64,000 nucleotides of DNA, from assembly GCF_024919275.1 (NCBI RefSeq), contig NZ_JANWGH010000001.1, positions 1 through 64,000 of the forward strand, written 5' to 3'. The translations under genes were made by a program, and so were the position numbers. The stretch comes from Algoriphagus limi. GTDB taxonomy: Bacteria > Bacteroidota > Bacteroidia > Cytophagales > Cyclobacteriaceae. Every line of letters starts with the position of its first letter. Position 1 is the first letter of the stretch. This document shows positions 22,199 through 33,529 of this stretch, one piece after another. The notes under the pieces are model-generated. The model did no database searches. It was not told the origin of the DNA and worked only from the letters and a program-made list of their open reading frames with translations.

Positions 22199-23431
22199 TT
22201 AACGATCTAAAATTAGGTTTTTAGCCTTACATATATAGTGTTTCTTCACGACTTTACTCATGATTTTGATATTAGGTAAGTCGGCTGCTTGAGCCACATC
22301 CACGACATCTCCTTTTTTGGTTAAAATGGAAATTCGGTCCTTTGCTAAATATCCGTAATTACTCAGAGATCCTGATGAAAAGAAATAAGTCAAATCTTCT
22401 TCTGGTATCCCCAACTTATTTATGGTTTTTGTCCTTGAAGTTTCCAAGGTCTCCTCTTTAAAAGGATCATTGCTGAGTTGAATTTTGAAAAGATTTCTTG
22501 TCAAAAACATGGTCGAAATATTTCGAAGCACGTAATCTTCTGACTTTTTCCAAAGTTTGATGGCTCCCCAAATATCAAAATCATCAAGCTCTAGGAAAAT
22601 ACGCAACAATTCTGGATTTTTCTCAAAATCAGTTAGTTGTAAATTGTTTTCCAATAAGAAATTAAATTCATCAGAGACTGGATAATTTGCTCCTGCTGAC
22701 TTTTGATCTTTTGCCCGTTGAATCAAATTGATGAGCATTTTTTCAGCACTCACGGTTGTTTTGTGCAAATAAACCTGCCAATACATCAACCGTCGTGCAC
22801 TTAGGAAGTTTTCGATAGAATAGATTCCCTTTTCCTCAATGACGATTTGGTCATTTTTGACATCCATCATTTTGATGATTCTATCAGCTCCGATAGTTCC
22901 TTCTGAAACTCCGGTGAAAAAGCAATCCCGCTGCAAATAATCTAGTCGGTCAATATCCAACTGACTTGAAACCAATTGATGGAAAAATTTCCGTTTGTAT
23001 TGATTTTTAAAAATTTTAAGGGCTAAATCCAGACCCCCATTCAGTTCCTGGTTGAGCAGGTCAATGATCATTAAAGACAGCTTTTCATGCGGTACACCTT
23101 GCAGCAAGCTGTATTCTAAAGCATGGGAAAATGGTCCATGGCCGATATCATGAAGCAAAATCGCAATAAGTGCCGCTTCAAATTCCTGATCACTGATTTC
23201 AGTACCTTTATTTCGGAGATTTTCTAAAGTGATCTGCATCAGATGCATAGCGCCCAAGGCGTGGTGAAATCGGGTATGCAACGCCCCCGGATAGACAAAA
23301 TCAGTCAAACCCAATTGCTTGATCCGGCGTAATCTCTGAAAGAAAGGATGGTCAATGATCTCAAAAATCAGCTCACTTGGAATCGTGATAAAACCATAAA
23401 CAGGATCATTGAGTATTTTCTGGCTTTTCAA
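22199..23431 (-). CDS. HD domain phosphohydrolase (dNTPase-like)
   Basis: 410 residues, starting at TTG (23431); no ATG lies nearby. It has the HD metal site: TRFHHALGAMHL (about 53-64), HDIGHGPFSH (about 93-102) and LDIDRLDYLQRD (about 157-168), as in the SAMHD1/dGTPase-like family. The substrate is unknown. It is the first gene of the lpx transcription unit, and a TACTTTTG promoter element lies 21 bases upstream. It is divergent from porX. Confidence 0.88.
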   Translation of the reverse strand: MKSQKILNDPVYGFITIPSELIFEIIDHPFFQRLRRIKQLGLTDFVYPGALHTRFHHALGAMHLMQITLENLRNKGTEISDQEFEAALIAILLHDIGHGPFSHALEYSLLQGVPHEKLSLMIIDLLNQELNGGLDLALKIFKNQYKRKFFHQLVSSQLDIDRLDYLQRDCFFTGVSEGTIGADRIIKMMDVKNDQIVIEEKGIYSIENFLSARRLMYWQVYLHKTTVSAEKMLINLIQRAKDQKSAGANYPVSDEFNFLLENNLQLTDFEKNPELLRIFLELDDFDIWGAIKLWKKSEDYVLRNISTMFLTRNLFKIQLSNDPFKEETLETSRTKTINKLGIPEEDLTYFFSSGSLSNYGYLAKDRISILTKKGDVVDVAQAADLPNIKIMSKVVKKHYICKAKNLILDR

Positions 23432-23451
23432 GGAGGCCTATTTTGTTTACC

Positions 23452-23459
23452 CAAAAGTA
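23452..23459 (-). promoter_or_regulatory. Bacteroidota -7 element for the HD hydrolase-lpx unit
   Basis: CAAAAGTA on the plus strand reads TACTTTTG on the minus strand, an exact TAnnTTTG match 21 bases before the TTG start. No clear -33 TTTG was found. Confidence 0.6.
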
Positions 23460-23489
23460 GTTATAATTTTAAAAGAATCAGAAATCAGT

Positions 23490-25046
23490 ATGACGCAAAA
23501 AGCAAGGATTCTCTGGGCAGATGATGAAATAGACCTGCTCAAACCTCACATTTTATTTTTGGAACAAAAAGGCTATGAAATCATTACGGTGAATTCAGGG
23601 GTGGATGCCGTGGAGGAAATTGAAAAAGAATCCTTCGACTTGGTTTTTTTGGATGAAATGATGCCAGGGATGACAGGACTGGAGACACTTCAGCAGATCA
23701 AACAGATCAAACCTCAAATTCCAGTTGTCATGATCACCAAAAGTGAAGAGGAGCAGATCATGAATGATGCGATTGGAGGAAAAATTGCTGATTATCTAAT
23801 CAAACCGCTCAATCCCAGTCAGATTTGGCTTTCTGTTAAGAAAATCCTTCAAAACCGTCAGCTCATTGAAGAAAAAACCACCCTCAGCTATCAGCAGGAT
23901 TTTATGAATATCAGTACTGCTTTGGGAGAGGCGGTAGATCATGAGGACTGGTCTAATATTTATAAAAAGCTGACTTATTGGGAACTGCAGATTGATCAGA
24001 CAGAGAACAAAAGCATGCAGGAAGTCTTGGAAACCCAAAAGACAGAAGCCAATGCAAATTTTGCCCGCTTTATAAAAAAGGAATATTTGAGTTGGATGGA
24101 TGAGCGAAATGCAGAGAAGCCTTTGCTTTCTCATCAAGTCATGCGAAAAAAAGTTTTTCCTAGGATCAAGGCTGGAACTCCTTTGTTTTTTATTGTCATA
24201 GACAATTTAAGACTAGATCAATGGGAAGATATGGAGCCTTTGATTGCACCTTATTTTACTATGCAGGAAAAGGATACCTACTACAGTATTTTGCCTACAA
24301 CCACTGCATTTGCCAGAAATGCATTATTCAGTGGAATGATGCCTATGGATATGGCGCGTTTCTATCCTCAATTTTGGGAAAATGAGGATTCGGATGAAGG
24401 AAAAAACAACTACGAGGAGGAATGGCTGCGAATAAATCTTGAGAAAAACCGGCTGAACATTAAATTTTCTTACACCAAAATTCTTCAAGCTAACCAAGGT
24501 AAAAATGCCTTGGATCAGTTCCATAATATGCTCCAAAACGACTTAAATGTTTTGGTTTACAATTTTGTGGATATGGTTTCCCATGCAAGGACGGATATGA
24601 AAATGATCCGGGAATTGGCTCCGGATGAATCTGCCTATCGATCTTTGACCAAAAGTTGGTTTGAACATTCGACACTTTTCGAAATGCTGAAAAAAATTCA
24701 GCAAGCGGGAGCAGAAGTGATTATTACTACCGATCATGGTACAAAAAGAGTTAATAAGCCTTACCGAATTGTTGGGGATAAAAATGTCACAACAAACCTG
24801 AGATATAAGCAAGGTAAAAACCTCAGTTTCGAGCATGGAAAAGTATTTGAGATTTCAAGGCCTGAGGAAGCCAAACTTCCTAAGCTGAATGTCTCAAGTG
24901 CCTACGTTTTCGCTGTGGAGGACTATTTTTTCGCCTATCCAAATAATTATAATTACTACGTCAATTATTACAAGGATACATTTCAGCACGGTGGTGTATC
25001 TTTGGAGGAAATGATCGTTCCAATCCTGTATCTCAGGTCAAAATAA
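23490..25046 (+). CDS. porX: PorX-type response regulator with PglZ phosphatase-like domain
   Basis: 518 residues from ATG 23490; the longer frame from 23409 would add 27 residues overlapping the promoter region. The N-terminal receiver has D11, D12, phospho-acceptor D55 (LVFLDEMMPG) and the Lys in LIKPLN. A helical linker leads to a C-terminal PglZ/alkaline phosphatase-like domain (FIVIDNLRLDQW, LPTTTAFARNA, TDHG). In Porphyromonas and Flavobacterium PorX acts with PorY in controlling the type IX secretion system. No porY or por genes are nearby. The neighbours are the divergent HD gene and tsaE 7 bases downstream. Confidence 0.9.
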   Translation: MTQKARILWADDEIDLLKPHILFLEQKGYEIITVNSGVDAVEEIEKESFDLVFLDEMMPGMTGLETLQQIKQIKPQIPVVMITKSEEEQIMNDAIGGKIADYLIKPLNPSQIWLSVKKILQNRQLIEEKTTLSYQQDFMNISTALGEAVDHEDWSNIYKKLTYWELQIDQTENKSMQEVLETQKTEANANFARFIKKEYLSWMDERNAEKPLLSHQVMRKKVFPRIKAGTPLFFIVIDNLRLDQWEDMEPLIAPYFTMQEKDTYYSILPTTTAFARNALFSGMMPMDMARFYPQFWENEDSDEGKNNYEEEWLRINLEKNRLNIKFSYTKILQANQGKNALDQFHNMLQNDLNVLVYNFVDMVSHARTDMKMIRELAPDESAYRSLTKSWFEHSTLFEMLKKIQQAGAEVIITTDHGTKRVNKPYRIVGDKNVTTNLRYKQGKNLSFEHGKVFEISRPEEAKLPKLNVSSAYVFAVEDYFFAYPNNYNYYVNYYKDTFQHGGVSLEEMIVPILYLRSK

Positions 25047-26687: not shown

Positions 26688-27161
26688 TCAGGAAAGTAGG
26701 TTTTGTCGGAGTAAAAACTCCAATTGCTCATTAGCTTTGATCAATGCCTGAGTAAGACGTTCATTTTCTCGACGTAATGAGAAAACTTCATAGGCATTTT
26801 TAATTACAGTTCGGAGGTAATCCTCCTCCCAAGGCTTGGTGAGGTAGTGATAGACTTGACCTTTGTTAATTGCATCAATTACCGCCTGAATATCAGTGTA
26901 TCCAGTCAAAAGGATTCGGATCGGACTTGGATAAATAGGGATAATAGACTCCAAAAATTCCACCCCAGTTTGTTCTGGCATTCGTTGGTCGGTAATGATT
27001 ATTTCGATATCCTCGTTTTTGAGGATTTCGCGACCTTCGTCTGCCGAAATAGCTAAAAAAATCTTATAATCTCTTCGGAAAGTAGCCTTAAACGCTTGAA
27101 GATTATTTTCTTCATCGTCCACATATAGAATTCTGATTTTCTCTTCTTTCTTCTCTTCCAT
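26688..27161 (-). CDS. Receiver-only response regulator with short coiled-coil tail
   Basis: 157 residues: a CheY-like receiver with acidic pocket DDE (15-17), phospho-acceptor D58 (IIITDQRMP) and LTKPWEED, then a coiled coil (RENERLTQALIKANEQLEFLL). There is no DNA-binding or enzymatic output domain. The receiver is clearly related to that of the hybrid at 32438 (shared DDExNNLxxFxATxRRDxKIF and [20 protein letters not shown] patterns). It lies divergent to the ThiF-nitroreductase operon and probably works with that operon's kinases. It is convergent with ald. Confidence 0.88.
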   Translation of the reverse strand: MEEKKEEKIRILYVDDEENNLQAFKATFRRDYKIFLAISADEGREILKNEDIEIIITDQRMPEQTGVEFLESIIPIYPSPIRILLTGYTDIQAVIDAINKGQVYHYLTKPWEEDYLRTVIKNAYEVFSLRRENERLTQALIKANEQLEFLLRQNLLS

Positions 27162-27358
27162 TTGTTGACCCAGCCGGGAACCGATTAAAATTTCTCCAAA
27201 TAATTATTTTTTCTTGGCAAAAACAAACAACAATTGTTTTTCATGTTTGCTCCATAAAGATGTTGAATTTAACTTATAAAATTAATTTTGAATTTAATTT
27301 GAGAATAAAAATCAAAAACTAACTTTACCAAGCATATCACCCTTATTGTGCTTCATAA

Positions 27359-29629
27359 ATGTTAGCTTCACCAAAAATCACTTTGGAGAATAGTGTTCAA
27401 CCCATACTTCTCGACCCAAAATTGCCTCGGCAAAAGGAGGAGATTTTGAGGTTGAGGGAGTTGCCTTATGTAGTCGTTGTAGATCAAATCGAAAGCCAGG
27501 TAAAAGACCTTATCAAGGCTGGTAGCCCTTCTATATCTTTTTCACCTGAAGAATTAGCTAAAAAGGCGAAAGAGTTTTTTCAAAAAGTAGACCGGGAAAC
27601 CTACGGACTTTGGGTTTATTACCCTTGGAAAAATCATTTAGTACATATTCTTCCTGAAGAAGATTTTATTCGAATTCGTACAATTCGCAATAATTACAAA
27701 ATTACTCCTCAAGAACATGAGTTTCTAGCAGGCAAAAAGATTGGGATTGTTGGACTTTCTGTCGGCCAGAGTATTGCCTTAGCGATGGCTTTGGAGCGAA
27801 GCTGCGGAGAAATGAGGCTTGCTGATTTTGATACTCTCGAACTGAGTAATTTAAATAGACTGAAGGCTGGAGTGACTAGTCTAGGACTTGAGAAAGTAGT
27901 AATCGCTGCAAGAGAAATTTCTGAAATTGATCCCTATTTGAATCTCACACTGTTTAGGGAGGGAGTTACTGAACAAAATATAGACGACTTTTTCACAGAA
28001 AATGGAAAGTTGGACTTGGTAATAGATGAATGTGATAGCTTGGATATGAAGATTTTACTTCGTGAAAAAGCCAAGTTCTATGGTATTCCTGTATTAATGG
28101 ATACTTCTGATCGAGGCATGCTAGATGTGGAGCGCTTCGATTTAGAACCTAATCGTCCCATTTTCCATGGGTTGATGGGGAATATTGATTTGAATTCCTT
28201 AAAAAACCTTACTACCCAACAGAAGGTAGGGATTGGCTTAAAAATTACCGGAACCGATACGCTTTCTCCAAGAATGAAAGCATCCTTATTGGAAGTTGGC
28301 CAAACCATCAGCAGCTGGCCTCAACTTGCCTCAGCTGTTTTTTTAGGTGGAGCTTCAGTGGCACATGTTGGGCGTAAATTATTGCTCGGTGATCCTGTGA
28401 AATCTGGTCGCTACTATGTGGATTTAGATGAGATCGTTCATTTGGAGACTTTGGAGGAAATCAAAATTCCTGAGTTGAAAAATGTGCAAAATGGAGATTT
28501 CAAGGCTGCAGTTCCAGATGATATTCTCCCTTCAGGTTATCTCCCCACCGAGAAAGAGTTGGAGGAGATGATCTCTTTCGCCAATCTAGCTCCTTCGGGT
28601 GGAAATGTTCAACCTTGGATATGGGTTTTGGATCAAAGAGGCGTTTTACATCTTTTCCATGATAAAGTTCGAAGTTATTCTTTGCTAGATTATAAAGGGA
28701 CAGGGTCTTTAATTGCTTTTGGAGCTGCTCTTGAAAATTTGAGAATTTTTTGCGGAAAGCATGGGATCGAAATTGAAGTGATATCTCAAATCAAGGAATT
28801 TGATGATGATTTAATTGCAAGTGTTCGGTTTGCAAGCAAACAAAATCAATCCTTGGATATTCCTCATTTGGATTTATATGAAGGGGCTGGGCTTCGCTGT
28901 ACTAATAGAAAAAATCCAAAGAGGAAATTATTAGATGATGATCAATTAGAAGCCATCCTTTCTTTTGTGGATTCTGAAGAAATGAGTTTAGATTTTTTGA
29001 CAGAAGAAAAAGATCTTGAAAAACTTTCTGAGGTGTTGGGTGGAATGGATCGAATGCGATTATTTCATGAGCAAGGTCTCCAGGATTTTATTCATGAAGT
29101 GAGATGGAACGATAAAGAAGCTCGGGAAACAAAAGATGGGATTGACTTAGCTACATTGGAATTAAGTGGGGCCGAAAGAGCAGCAATGGGGCTCTTGAAA
29201 GATCCAAGAACGGTTAAGTTTTTCAGGAAATTTTTAATGGGATATGGCTTGACCAAGATATCTCATTCAACTTTGATGGCAAGCTCGGCCATATTTTTGC
29301 TGCAGAGTAAAAAGTACACACCCGAATCAATTTTGGAAGCAGGAAAAATTCTACAACGTATTTGGATAAAAGCCAATATGATGGGGATTGCTTTCCAACC
29401 TGTAACTGCTTCCTTATTTATCTTCCAAAGAGTAAAACGTGAAAATGACCATGGTTTTGAGGAGCGGGAAACTCAACTGATTGCAGAACATTATAAAGCT
29501 TTAAAAAAATTGTATGGTGTGAAGGATGGTATGGAAGAAATTTTTATGTTCAGGTTGAATTTTGCTGGAGAGCCAAGTATGCGCTCTTATCGCAGGGATG
29601 TAAGTGAGACGTTAATTAAGTTGGGGTAA
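27359..29629 (+). CDS. ThiF/E1-like adenylyltransferase fused to nitroreductase (Rv1355c/MoeY-like)
   Basis: 756 residues in three parts. Residues 1-120 are of unknown type. About 121-340 form a ThiF/E1-like Rossmann domain (KKIGIVGLSVGQS, 126-138; ADFDTLELSNLNR, 155-167; LVIDECDSLDMK), which in relatives adenylates a carboxylate. About 395-740 form an FMN-nitroreductase-like domain (FANLAPSGGNVQPW, 406-419). This combination matches the Rv1355c (MoeY) family, whose reaction is not established. No Cys-based zinc site typical of ThiF/MoeB was seen. Its stop overlaps the next gene's ATG by one base. It is first of a four-gene operon with an acyltransferase and two kinases. Confidence 0.85.
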   Translation: MLASPKITLENSVQPILLDPKLPRQKEEILRLRELPYVVVVDQIESQVKDLIKAGSPSISFSPEELAKKAKEFFQKVDRETYGLWVYYPWKNHLVHILPEEDFIRIRTIRNNYKITPQEHEFLAGKKIGIVGLSVGQSIALAMALERSCGEMRLADFDTLELSNLNRLKAGVTSLGLEKVVIAAREISEIDPYLNLTLFREGVTEQNIDDFFTENGKLDLVIDECDSLDMKILLREKAKFYGIPVLMDTSDRGMLDVERFDLEPNRPIFHGLMGNIDLNSLKNLTTQQKVGIGLKITGTDTLSPRMKASLLEVGQTISSWPQLASAVFLGGASVAHVGRKLLLGDPVKSGRYYVDLDEIVHLETLEEIKIPELKNVQNGDFKAAVPDDILPSGYLPTEKELEEMISFANLAPSGGNVQPWIWVLDQRGVLHLFHDKVRSYSLLDYKGTGSLIAFGAALENLRIFCGKHGIEIEVISQIKEFDDDLIASVRFASKQNQSLDIPHLDLYEGAGLRCTNRKNPKRKLLDDDQLEAILSFVDSEEMSLDFLTEEKDLEKLSEVLGGMDRMRLFHEQGLQDFIHEVRWNDKEARETKDGIDLATLELSGAERAAMGLLKDPRTVKFFRKFLMGYGLTKISHSTLMASSAIFLLQSKKYTPESILEAGKILQRIWIKANMMGIAFQPVTASLFIFQRVKRENDHGFEERETQLIAEHYKALKKLYGVKDGMEEIFMFRLNFAGEPSMRSYRRDVSETLIKLG

Positions 29630-30330
29630 TGTTTACTTTCAAGGCTTTCCGGGCTGTAGATGAACCTGAAATCTGTGAACAATTCATAGAAGGACATGCA
29701 AATGTTCTAAAGGAATACGGAGTCACCAAAGTAACTTCCTCCAATAACGATTGGAAGGACAATCCCTATGTTTTTGTAGTGACTGTTCATGAAAACTCCA
29801 CTGGAAAAGTAGTAAGTGGTCTAAGAATCCATGTTGCCTCAAAAGAATATCCACTTCCACTAGAAGGTGCAATTGCGCCTGTTGATTCTGGAATTTATGA
29901 TCTAGTTGCCAAATATCGCGAGGCTGGAACGGGCGAAATTGGTGGCCTGTGGAATAGTCGAGCAATTTCTGGATATGGAATCGGAGCCATTTTTTTATCG
30001 AGAACTTCCTTGGTTATAGCTGAACAAATTCAAGTACCAACTCTATTTGCGCTTTGTGCAGAATATACATTAAAGCCGACCTTACAAAAAGGTTTCGAAA
30101 TTGAAGAAGGTATTGGTAATAATGGAACCTTTTTTTACCCTAAACTGGACCTTGTGGCCACACTTGCCATTTTAAGAGATGTCGAAAACTTGCCTCTCGC
30201 TCTTCCTGTTGAAAGAGATTTTATTTTAGAGTTAAGACAAAATCTTGTCTGCACTCGAGTTGAACAGACACTTAAAGGTCCGGTTGAAATCACTTATGAT
30301 TTAAGAATAAAAAATCCTAATTGGAGATAA
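29629..30330 (+). CDS. GNAT-fold acyltransferase, autoinducer-synthase-like
   Basis: 233 residues. The N terminus (FRAVDEPEICEQFIEGHANVLKEYG), the central EIGGLWNSRAISGYGIG stretch (about 106-122; beta strand plus loop resembling the CoA/ACP-binding turn) and LFALCAEYTLKPTLQKGF resemble GNAT enzymes of the LuxI/N-acyl amino acid synthase type. The usual RxxGxG/A motif is only approximate, so substrate and donor are unknown. The ATG overlaps the preceding stop (TAATG) and the kinase gene follows after 3 bases. The context suggests it acts with the ThiF-nitroreductase protein. Confidence 0.65.
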   Translation: MFTFKAFRAVDEPEICEQFIEGHANVLKEYGVTKVTSSNNDWKDNPYVFVVTVHENSTGKVVSGLRIHVASKEYPLPLEGAIAPVDSGIYDLVAKYREAGTGEIGGLWNSRAISGYGIGAIFLSRTSLVIAEQIQVPTLFALCAEYTLKPTLQKGFEIEEGIGNNGTFFYPKLDLVATLAILRDVENLPLALPVERDFILELRQNLVCTRVEQTLKGPVEITYDLRIKNPNWR

Positions 30331-30333
30331 TAT

Positions 30334-32445
30334 ATGATATTTAGTTTCATTTCTTTTATCCTGCTATTTTTTAATCAATCACCCATATTAATTCAAGGTT
30401 CTAATATTAACCTGGATAAGTATGAGTATTTGATTTTGAATGAAGATGATCCTCTTTCGATTAAAGAGGTTATGGGTCGTGAAGATTTTTCTCTTTTAGA
30501 GAACAAGAACATTAATTTTGGGATCAATAATGACGTAGTTTGGTTAAAATATTATGTTGAAAACCAAGGCCTTGATTCTCAAAAATACCTCTACATAAAC
30601 AATCCGTCCCTCGATAGTTTGGAATTGTTTGTGGTTCACCAAGGTGAGGTTATTGAACAAGTTATGGGAGGACGATTGGTTGATTTTGATTCAAAGCCAA
30701 TACCATCTAAATCGATTATTTTCAAGGTTAATCTTCCAGTCAATTCACCTTCTGATATTTACCTAAGAGTCCACAGCGTTAATAAAAAAATCATTACTTC
30801 AACAGTTGCTGATCGGGACTTCTTAGAAAAATTGATCAATAGGGAGAATATCCTGTTTGGGATTTTTACAGGTGTCATTGTTGGCTTGTTCTTTTACAAC
30901 CTCTTCCTTTATTTTTCTGTAAGAGATAAACTATACCTTATTTATGTAATCCATACCATCTTGGTTTGGTTTGCTCAATCTTCCATTCTTGGATATACGC
31001 AGGAATTATTATGGCCTGATTCAGTTTGGCTAAACCTAAGGTCAGGAGTGATTTTTTCCTCCATGGTAAGTATTGTGGGAATCTGGTTTTTGAGAGTGTT
31101 TCTCTCCACTGATAAATTTGTTCCAAAACTGGATAAAGGATTTTACTTTATCTATGTGGTATATGCCTTCATTTTGGTGAATGCATTCTTTTTCTCCATC
31201 ACCATAAGCTATCAAACCTTACTGGTTACCCAGTCTATTGTTGTTTTATTCGTTTTGCTTGTAGCATTTTCTGTATTGAAAATGGGGTATCGACCAGCAA
31301 GATATTACCTCTTGGCTTGGTCCATTTTTATGTTTGGAATTTTCCTTTTCGTATTAAGCGAAATGGGTGTAATCCCTACAAATGACCTTACGGCATACAT
31401 TATGCCTCTTGGGTCTGCCTTAGAAGTAGTATTACTCTCTTTCGCCTTGGCGGATAAGATCAATATCTTGAAAAAAGAGAAAGAAGAAGAGCAGGCAGAG
31501 CGCTTGAAGGTGTTAAAGGAAAATGAAGAATTGGTGAGGGAGCAAAATACTTTGCTAGAAGAAAAAGTAAGGGTGCGGACAGACGAATTGGAACAAGCAC
31601 TTCGTAACCTTCAAAATACCCAAAGTCAGTTAGTGAGTCAGGAAAAAATGGCTTCGCTTGGTCAATTAACAGCTGGTATTGCCCATGAGATCAATAACCC
31701 AATCAACTTTGTGAGTTCAAATATCACGCCTCTGAAACGCGATATCAATGATATTATGGAGGTTATTGATTTCTATCGGGAAACAGCACAAAAAGAATTC
31801 CAAGAGGGCTCTAAAAAGAAGGCAGCAGACTTGGAAGAGGAGCTGGAATTAGATTATGTGTTGGAAGAAGTTAACCAACTTCTCAAAGGGATGGAAGAGG
31901 GTGCAAAGCGTACTGTTGAGATAGTGAAAGGATTGCGACTTTTCTCCCGTGTGGATGAACAGGATGTCAAGAAAGTGGATCTACACGATGGTATTAATAG
32001 TACCTTGATTCTCTTGAATAGCTCTATTCCTGGAAAAATCAGAATCGTACGGGATTTCGGAGAACTGCCAATGGTAGAATGCTTGGCTGGTAAAATCAAC
32101 CAGGTATTCATGAATATCATCAATAATGCTGTTCATGCTTTAAGTGATCATATGGAGGAAATTAAGGATCCAAAAATCGAGATTCGGACCCGTTCTCATG
32201 GAGATACTGTTTCAGTGGAAATTGGGGATAATGGCCCTGGAATGCCAGAGCATGTTAAGCAACGAATTTTCGAACCATTCTTTACCACAAAGGCTGTTGG
32301 TAAGGGTACCGGTTTGGGGCTTTCAATTGTTTATTCTATAATTGAAAATCATAAGGGAACGATGGAAGTAGAAACTGAAGTCGGCCAAGGAACCACTTTT
32401 ATAATTACACTACCTGTACACCAAAGCAACGTAAAGCATGAATAG
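30334..32445 (+). CDS. 7TM-DISM sensor histidine kinase
   Basis: 703 residues. After a signal-like N terminus comes an extracytoplasmic 7TMR-DISMED2 domain (about 25-165), a carbohydrate-binding-like fold that usually binds small ligands. Seven membrane helices follow (about 172-372), then a coiled coil (375-440), a HisKA-like helix with phospho-acceptor His451 ([10 protein letters not shown]) and a HATPase with N box [16 protein letters not shown]1 DNGPGMP and G2 [11 protein letters not shown]. It would sense a ligand in the periplasm and signal to receivers. The stop overlaps the next gene by 8 bases. Confidence 0.9.
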
Positions 32446-33529
32446 TAGTGACATTCGGGTGCTCTACATCGATGATGAAGACAACAACCTAAAATCTTTT
32501 AGGGCTACTTTAAGAAGAGACTTCAAAATTTTTACCGCAATCGATGCGTTTGAAGGACTTAAAATCGTCCAAGAGGAAGAAATCCATGTAGTCATTGCTG
32601 ACCAGCGAATGCCTGGAATGACAGGTACTGAATTTTTTGAAAAAATGATTCAGATTAATCCGGATCCTGTTCGAATCCTTCTGACAGGTTATTCGGATAT
32701 CGCTTCTGTAATTGACGCGATCAATAAAGGGGAGGTGTATCGATTTATCGATAAGCCTTGGAATATTGAGCAAATCAAAAACTCCATCAAAAACGCTGCT
32801 GATATTTACTTCATGCGGCAGGAGCTAAAGGAGAAAAACATCAAACTTCAAAAGCTTCATACTGAGATGAACCAGTTTGTTTACAGTTTGTCTCATGAAT
32901 TGAGAGGTCCATTAATGAGTATTTCAGGTGTCTCTAAACTCGCTAAAATGGAGATTCAAGATCCTCATGTGTTGGAGTTTTTTGAAATGATTGATTCAGC
33001 TACCACTAAGCTGGATGATTTTATTTACAAAATGCTCGACTTTTATCGCTCCACGAAAATTGATCATAAGATTACTTCGATCAATTTCAAAGAAGTGGTC
33101 AATCAACAGATGGAAGCCTATCGGGCAAAATTTGACTTGAGCCATTTTCATGTAGAAATCCAGGTCAATCAGAATGAGGAATTCTTATCTGATGATTCCA
33201 AGATTCGGGTGATTTTGAATAACCTATTTTCCAACTCTGTACAATTTCAGAAAAACGAACCTGGAGAAAAGCGTATCGCCTTGACTGTCGATGTGCGAGA
33301 TGGGCAAGCCTATATTATGTTGGAGGATAATGGAATCGGAATCGAAGATCGACATCATCCGGAAGTATTTAATCTTTTCACCCGAGCAACCCAGAAAAAT
33401 GTAGGCACTGGCTTGGGCTTGTATATGGTCAAGGAAGCCGTCGAGCAATTGGGTGGAAATGTGGAACTTGAGTCAATTTTGAATGAGGGAACTACCGTTC
33501 GTGTGGTTCTGCCTTCATTGAATTTGTAA
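32438..33529 (+). CDS. Receiver-histidine kinase hybrid response regulator
   Basis: 363 residues. The N-terminal receiver (DDED at 12-15, phospho-acceptor D55 in [16 protein letters not shown]) is followed by a short coiled coil and a soluble HisKA domain with His153 ([13 protein letters not shown]), then a HATPase ([26 protein letters not shown]). It has no membrane segment, so it is likely a cytoplasmic second kinase in a phosphorelay from the 7TM-DISM kinase. The receiver is paralogous to the 26688-27161 protein. The gene overlaps the kinase by 8 bases; ppa follows 68 bases later. Confidence 0.9.

Follow-up and report, generated by a model that had tools for sequence, protein, structure and literature searches.

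Five adjacent genes of Algoriphagus limi bring together putative signal-making enzymes and two histidine kinases, which raises the question whether the enzymes make a molecule that the kinases read. The genes lie at 26688–33529 of the window, by which we mean the whole stretch of 64,000 nucleotides that was analysed (contig NZ_JANWGH010000001.1, positions 1 to 64,000). They encode a TrzS-like fusion of a ThiF cyclase and an oxidase, a TrzA-like N-acyl amino acid synthase, a membrane-bound histidine kinase (HK1), a soluble receiver-kinase hybrid (HK2) and a single receiver-domain protein (RR). The locus is probably a signalling module, whose ligand would be an N-acyl oxazolone or a near derivative of one, read by HK1. 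All five open reading frames (ORFs) were found where the original prediction, made from the bare sequence, had placed them, with domains as it described. Its description of the four plus-strand genes as overlapping or lying within 3 bases of each other is also correct: TrzS and TrzA overlap by 1 base, TrzA and HK1 are separated by 3 bases, and HK1 and HK2 overlap by 8 bases. These genes would be co-translated.

Linkage of the enzymes and the kinase across Bacteroidota

Loci were fetched around the cyclase gene in the genus, in its family, in a sample of the phylum and in a second family, and their ORFs were scored by profiles (loci and genomes are numbered with L and G, respectively). The genus search was positive in 54 of 72 genomes, of which 52 were fetched (all except G609 and G615), the family search in 70 of 295, with 39 of the 53 outside the genus fetched, and the search of family f4 in 153 of 399, with 60 loci newly fetched besides L151, L153 and L154. 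The resulting tally comprises 156 loci, chosen by likeness to the cyclase; 18 named loci, L043–L060, stand outside it, and several of these are the same records as tallied loci. ThiF and TrzA are both present in 154 of the 156 loci (in L217 by raw ORF), the other two, L149 and L150, having ThiF alone. HK1 accompanies the two enzymes in 151 of the 154, the split HK1 of L116 being counted; two of the misses, L077 and L171, are contig ends, and the third is L205.

A second approach started from TrzA. Matches were found in 13 of 395 genomes of the phylum, spread over 10 of 170 genera. Family f5, which was surveyed by coordinates only (except for L152, L221 and L222) and with an HK1-sensor query that lacked the kinase domain, has TrzA in 53 of its 176 genomes. 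At 52 of the 54 TrzA places in f5 the HK1 sensor follows on the same strand, at most 3 kb downstream, and the two remaining places are 684 and 17 bases from the contig start in that direction. All 53 f5 genomes with TrzA have an HK1-sensor match (that of G1219 being weak and located elsewhere), compared to 4 of the 123 without TrzA (Fisher p ~1e-40, with kinship not corrected for). That the enzyme pair is usually found without kinases, the outcome that the original prediction had named as contrary to it, is not borne out by either survey.

The genes flanking the module are mostly common within the family of the window and different in other families. Gene order varies as well, being either ThiF-TrzA-HK1-HK2 or TrzA-ThiF-HK1-HK2, with the receiver gene on either side. 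As the gene set persists in families that differ in its order and flanks, it is not accounted for by shared synteny; synthase and receptor genes are linked across lineages that have different surroundings. The gene set recurs far beyond chance, and the module appears to belong to scattered Bacteroidota groups, with a patchy distribution over several families. In two actinobacterial plasmid loci, L157 and L159, a search of the genes around ThiF-FDO (FDO, flavin-dependent oxidase) detected no HK1 sensor.

Two further arrangements were observed. In genome G1203 (C4:69316–71259) a single HK1 is preceded by two TrzA genes in tandem, and might serve as the receptor for two signals. Directly upstream of the module in the window, at 23409–25046, is a gene for a PorX-like response regulator with a PglZ domain (Pfam); it is a common flank in the family of the window and was not seen adjoining the module in the other families read.

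Joint exchange of the synthase gene and the HK1 sensor half

Pairs of closely related Algoriphagus loci differ in one block. When L065 and L066 were compared in bins of 50 residues, identity was 96–100% in nearly all of AlaDH, the receiver, TrzS, the kinase half of HK1, HK2 and PPase, the exceptions in TrzS being the first bin (92%) and the last six residues (60%). Identity in the divergent block is 21–52% for TrzA and 7–38% for residues 1–350 of HK1. At the DNA level it is 38–62% inside the block and 86–100% outside it, apart from one edge bin at 85%; it falls from ~98% to ~50% where trzS ends and is back at 90% or above within HK1. The edges of the block lie in the last three TrzS residues and in an 11-residue stretch of HK1. 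The HK1 breakpoint falls in the seventh long helix of the structural model (residues 351–399), i.e. in the seventh transmembrane helix, TM7. The same pattern is seen between the window and L062, and L061 and L062 also differ by cassette exchange; the same-type pairs L065/L067 and L061/L063 do not show it. With edges transferred from these related pairs (L065/L066 and, in HK1, also window/L062), the cassette that is swapped between types spans ~1.8 kb of the plus strand of the window, 29615–31435. It comprises the last few TrzS codons, TrzA and the exchangeable sensor half of HK1, residues 1 to ~367 (30334–31435, plus strand), which is delimited by its partial correlation with TrzA distance and by the residue breakpoint.

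The correlation was calculated for TrzA distance given the flanks. Among 43 Algoriphagus loci (L063 and L077 dropped) the partial r is 0.90 for the HK1 periplasmic domain and 0.90 for the seven-transmembrane (7TM) region, compared to 0.08 for the HK1 kinase half, 0.10 for HK2, 0.12 for RR, 0.26 for ThiF and 0.23 for FDO. Across 80 loci of the family (L063, L077, L106, L107, L116, L125, L133, L142 and L144 dropped) the corresponding values are 0.85 and 0.91 for the periplasmic and 7TM parts, 0.14 for the kinase half, 0.16 for HK2, 0.24 for RR and 0.59 for ThiF. Related rows are not independent and small correlations too pass most permutations, so that the size of a correlation weighs more than its permutation count. 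Along HK1, segments of 15 residues (same two rows dropped as for the genus) give partial r values of 0.76–0.92 up to residue 360, 0.64 at 361–375 and 0.07 at 371–385. Along TrzS, in bins of 40 residues, the value in Algoriphagus is at most 0.33.

Types of TrzA and of the HK1 sensor, defined at matched cut-offs, agree in 51 of 51 Algoriphagus loci (L077, which has no HK1, dropped). A coarse partition into 25, 19 and 7 loci is obtained at 55–60% for TrzA and 35–40% for the sensor, and the next one, into 25, 19, 4 and 3, at 62–65% and 45–50%. At finer cut-offs the exact match is lost, TrzA splitting the first type 15/10 and the sensor splitting the others first. Mapped on a tree built from PorX, AlaDH, PPase, HK2 and the helicase, the four types require 15 parsimony changes, with a shuffled mean of 21.4; recombination of the flanking genes could inflate the count of 15.

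Three genera of another family, g8, g20 and g22, were compared in the same way (L165, L169, L171, L205 and L217 dropped). The partial r between TrzA and the sensor half of HK1 is 0.96 in g8 and 0.83 in g20, with 0.19 and 0.15, respectively, for the kinase half. It is the cyclase that follows the HK1 sensor in g22 (0.48). Here L179 and L161 have similar TrzA proteins (0.84) and differ in the sensor and in the presence of the oxidase, and L164 and L163 both have the oxidase and differ in their sensors. Because the cyclase and not TrzA follows the sensor in g22, the companion of the sensor is a gene for signal synthesis, which is not always TrzA. Synthase and sensor are swapped together with the kinase core kept in Algoriphagus, g8 and g20, and in g22 this holds for the cyclase, not for TrzA. 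A co-exchanged block with matching types, as in Algoriphagus, is the signature of a signal-receptor pair.

Enzymes, kinases and receivers of the module

The TrzS-like protein (27359–29629, plus strand, 756 amino acids) consists of a ThiF cyclase (~residues 1–370) fused to the FDO domain (~396–756). Pfam detects ThiF (1.3e-18) and Nitroreductase (2.7e-6), and the protein is a member of NCBIfam NF005901, the Rv1355c family, with 747.7 bits against a cut-off of 476. According to PMC12856293, Rv1355c is TrzS, a ThiF cyclase fused to a flavin mononucleotide oxidase, which together with the N-acyltransferase TrzA makes N-acyl tryptazolones. Characterised Rv1355c/TrzS relatives convert N-acyl amino acids to N-acyl oxazolones, and the products of OxzAB and TyzACB are tyrosine- or phenylalanine-derived oxazolones (PMC12856293, PMC10404671). 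The oxazolone ring is open to attack by acids and by alcohols (PMC12856293). The protein of the window is 36% identical to a Rhodococcus homologue and 33% to a Mycolicibacterium homologue. Residues that matter in the M. smegmatis TrzS are D217, R540 and Q651 (PMC12856293), and D226, R565 and Q680 stand at the inferred places of these in the window, as judged by offset via the Mycolicibacterium copy (15 for D and R, and 13 for Q, which is the weaker guess). In an alignment of 96 rows the D is present in all 96 and the Q in all 51 oxidase-bearing rows; at the position of this Q, the Rhodococcus copy carries an H. From this comparison, the catalytic positions may correspond to those of the TrzAS/OxzAB enzymes.

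Other ThiF proteins were met in the searches. On Streptomyces plasmids (L158:4731–7628 and L160:5140–8054) a ThiF relative, 45% identical, stands beside MerR and GNAT genes or beside a KAS III gene. A different ThiF branch adjoins a small GNAT, without kinases, at L149:2956–6060 and L150:38–1473, and L149 also carries genes judged by eye to be TetR-like and enoyl-CoA hydratase-like. L149 and L150 were rejected as members of the module, being matches to the ThiF query only, in unrelated operons without TrzA or kinases.

TrzA (29629–30330, plus strand, 233 amino acids) has no Pfam or NCBIfam match, a PDB sequence search gave nothing (best E 1), and a PHROGs search gave none. Pfam on 29 diverse TrzA proteins returned stray weak matches only (best E 0.018, and one Acetyltransf_1 at 0.14); 19 columns are invariant among these homologues. 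The fold was assigned from an AlphaFold2 model (mean pLDDT 79), for which Foldseek against the PDB ranks the acyl-homoserine lactone (AHL) synthase BjaI first (5w8e, E 3.1e-7) and the N-acyl amino acid synthase FeeM second (2g0b, E 3.8e-7). An amino acid N-acyltransferase fold of the AHL-synthase/FeeM/GNAT kind is therefore encoded by the gene that adjoins TrzS, and with GNATs close behind, the label LuxI/GNAT-like that the original prediction gave to this protein is apt. In hhalign, TrzA shows no detectable relation to the GNAT beside the Streptomyces ThiF or to the gene beside the Mycolicibacterium homologue.

The enzyme that would cap the carboxylate varies. L221 and L222 have no ThiF in the 8.3 kb read; a 213-amino acid ICMT-like protein is encoded between TrzA and HK1 (L221:5203–5844, minus strand, and L222:2262–2903, plus strand; Pfam ICMT 1.5e-19 and 3.5e-18), and the rest of the locus is unchanged. 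The L222 protein also matches PDB 4a2n (9.1e-15). By coordinates, six f5 genomes have such a gene in this position, those of L221 and L222 included; the f5 locus L152 carries ThiF. The ICMT-like gene suggests N-acyl amino acid methyl esters as the signals of L221 and L222. The oxidase domain is absent in 78 of the 156 loci, and no separate oxidase gene was found in any of these 78 within the fetched stretches, the rest of those genomes not having been searched. ThiF without the oxidase domain occurs in L106–L112, which are Algoriphagus loci with TrzA/HK1 types of their own, in L119–L148 and in L156; loci without the oxidase would yield a saturated oxazolone or another product. Given the ICMT replacement and the half of the loci without an oxidase, TrzA and HK1 are the steadiest pair of the module and the carboxylate-capping enzyme is its variable part. 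The cap would make the molecule neutral and membrane-permeable.

HK1 (30334–32445, plus strand, 703 amino acids) has a 7TMR-DISMED2 periplasmic domain (Pfam 3.4e-21), seven transmembrane helices (7TMR-DISM_7TM, 3.1e-48), HisKA, which is below its Pfam cut-off, and HATPase_c (4.5e-26). The AlphaFold2 model of residues 1–400 (mean pLDDT 78.6) shows a beta domain at ~18–159 and seven long helices between 161 and 399; the H-box, HEINN, is at 451. HK2 (32438–33529, plus strand, 363 amino acids) is a soluble hybrid with Response_reg, HisKA and HATPase_c domains (Pfam), an H-box, HELRG, at 153 and the receiver motif IADQRMP at 53. RR (26688–27161, minus strand, 157 amino acids) is divergent from the operon and consists of a single receiver domain (Pfam Response_reg 1.1e-17; motifs VDDEENN and ITDQRMP) with a C-terminal coil; it is 56% identical to the HK2 receiver. 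RR is present in 148 of the 156 loci and missing in L149, L150, L152, L155, L205 and in L165, L169 and L171, the last three being cut by contig ends. HK2 is absent from L125, L133, L142, L144 and L205 and present in L107 (L077, L169 and L171 are cut). Several distant loci (L151, L155, L059) have a further single receiver according to Pfam. The receiver set is fluid, with the receiver duplicated, or an extra copy placed between HK1 and HK2, in L202, L203 and in L201, L210, L212 and L217–L220.

A proposed signalling module and its alternatives

From the gene make-up, the family and fold assignments, the conserved linkage and the co-exchanged block with its edge in TM7 we infer the product chemistry, the binding of the product by HK1, the direction of the relay and a cellular response, which would be as follows. 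TrzA would use acyl-CoA to attach a fatty acyl chain to an amino acid, and TrzS would adenylate the carboxylate, close it to an oxazolone and desaturate the product. The resulting N-acyl oxazolone, or a close derivative, would be the ligand of HK1, sensed by its periplasmic DISMED2 and 7TM half, and HK1 would then alter the flow of phosphate to the receivers of HK2 and RR. The signalling could be cell-to-cell or self-directed. Specificity types would arise through recombination events that jointly replace the sensor half of HK1 and a gene for signal synthesis, which would be TrzA in Algoriphagus and, in other groups, the cyclase or both, with the kinase core, HK2 and RR retained. The original prediction had proposed that the enzymes make a small diffusible molecule read by the kinases, with the receivers forming a relay; enzymes of an acylated product, a kinase as its most likely reader and two receivers stand; the diffusible nature of the molecule and the order of the relay are putative.

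Several observations weigh against this proposal. The arginine at R565 is conserved in 45 of 51 oxidase-bearing rows, six deviating with 4 W and 2 K. Against the TrzA model, general GNATs come close to the scores of BjaI and FeeM (PCAF at rank 8, E 7.9e-7), and the relation of TrzA to the 260-amino acid neighbour of the Rhodococcus homologue is weak (hhalign E 0.006, probability 6%). L205 is a real absence of HK1, with both enzymes and no kinase, and in L116 HK1 is split into two ORFs of 145 and 542 amino acids beside intact-looking TrzS and TrzA, which reflects either a receptor lost in nature or an error of sequencing. Conversely, four f5 genomes, G1195, G1200, G1252 and G1275, have an HK1-sensor match (E 2.5e-21 to 2.6e-28) and no TrzA match; these may be listeners or merely related 7TMR-DISM kinases. 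No output gene, and no DNA-binding output, was seen in the operon of the window.

That operon, having no obvious target gene, could also belong to the making of a functional lipid with a role in the membrane, as an antioxidant or as an antimicrobial, the kinases regulating or responding to its synthesis and HK1 sensing envelope stress or intracellular feedback by the product. We consider this unlikely, even though the actinobacterial tryptazolones are enriched in cells, with the N-acyl-tryptophan precursors in the medium, and antibiotics induced the oxazolones of relatives in proteobacteria (PMC12856293). A stress sensor need not change its sensing half whenever the synthase changes, and there is little accompanying change in the kinase core of HK1, in HK2 or in RR. 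Feedback sensing of the product itself would be compatible with these findings. Still less probable is a role of the enzymes in a cofactor pathway (molybdopterin or thiamine) with incidental kinases, an alternative raised in the original prediction on the side of molybdopterin and now largely refuted. ThiF is a ThiF/MoeB domain and Rv2338c was once annotated as MoeW (PMC10404671), but the ThiF-FDO fusion exceeds the Rv1355c family cut-off, its partner is AHL-synthase/FeeM-like, and kinases are nearly always present; the enzymes are of the TrzAS/OxzAB kind (PMC12856293, PMC10404671).

Physical linkage alone is an explanation to which we give a rather small chance, a little below that of the functional lipid: a rapidly evolving sensor domain would be replaced on one tract with the biosynthetic gene next to it, without any functional pairing. 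The exchanged tract is contiguous, so that linkage accounts for part of the agreement between synthase and sensor; types A and B have diverged so far that they would not easily recombine within the cassette, which makes the agreement partly mechanical; and the sensor also evolves fast between close loci. In g8 the cyclase, which lies between TrzA and HK1, travels too (0.94), and g8 therefore fails as an argument beyond linkage. In g22 the partial r between TrzA distance and the HK1 sensor is 0.08, a value matched or exceeded in 116 of 499 permutations, so TrzA does not covary with HK1 everywhere, and in g22 it is the intervening cyclase that does. However, the other neighbour of TrzA in Algoriphagus, TrzS, is nearly uncorrelated and is not carried along in the A/B exchanges, the tract stops at the boundary of sensor and kinase, and linkage alone leaves unexplained why the same set occurs across families with different order and flanks.

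The enzymes are of a known kind, and so are signalling by a synthase and a kinase and the occurrence of pherotypes. The original prediction knew of no described system of this make-up, which does not hold for the enzymes, TrzAS/OxzAB being described; for the combination of these enzymes with built-in kinases we found no description in the open-licence literature searched. The TrzAS, OxzAB and TyzACB systems likewise have a ThiF cyclase and a flavin oxidase (fused in TrzS and OxzB) adjoining an amino acid N-acyltransferase. They differ in that no kinase partner is named in the available parts of PMC12856293 and PMC10404671, whereas the module includes a 7TMR-DISM kinase together with a receiver-kinase and a receiver, and often has no oxidase. 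A likeness of oxazolones to quorum signals, and nearby c-di-GMP genes, were noted in PMC12856293, where the role is called unresolved. In clusters for N-acyl tyrosines (stieleriacines, thalassotalic and kyonggic acids), ThiF and nitroreductase genes likewise accompany an N-acyl amino acid synthase, but a histidine kinase is not mentioned in the parts of PMC12479983 available.

LuxI/LuxR systems share with the module an AHL-synthase-fold enzyme, and their product, as that of the module would be, is an acylated derivative of an amino acid that contains a five-membered ring. Unlike LuxI, however, the 233-amino acid protein has no AHL-synthase family match, no LuxR domain was found by Pfam among the eight proteins scanned, and the receptor would be a membrane histidine kinase. 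In CqsA/CqsS-type pairs the gene of a small-molecule synthase stands beside that of a membrane kinase reading the product, as proposed here; their synthase chemistry and receptor fold are unrelated to those of the module. A polymorphic signal-making gene is also found in the ComQXP and Agr pherotypes of Gram-positive bacteria, and the sensor part of the receptor is jointly polymorphic in pherotype systems. The module differs from these in having small-molecule enzymes, with no peptide precursor seen, a 7TMR-DISM receptor and hosts among Bacteroidota. comQ is polymorphic and incongruent with the genome (PMC4408185).

A broader proposal, for which we regard the chances as even, is that Bacteroidota communicate by a FeeM/LuxI-fold synthase of N-acyl amino acids, an exchangeable carboxylate cap and a 7TMR-DISM kinase as reader, with dialect cassettes made of the signal gene and the sensor half. 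The cap could be ring closure by ThiF, ring closure with desaturation, or a methyl ester made by an ICMT-like enzyme, and the charge of the carboxylate would be removed. With a receptor kinase that is physically and evolutionarily tied to a synthase, the analysis names a putative receptor and a candidate class of ligand. If true, this would be a quorum-sensing-like system for Bacteroidota, in which neighbouring species, by trading cassettes, would change which cells they hear. The natural swapped pairs, near-identical loci with different synthase and sensor, may be used to learn what 7TMR-DISM receptors bind.

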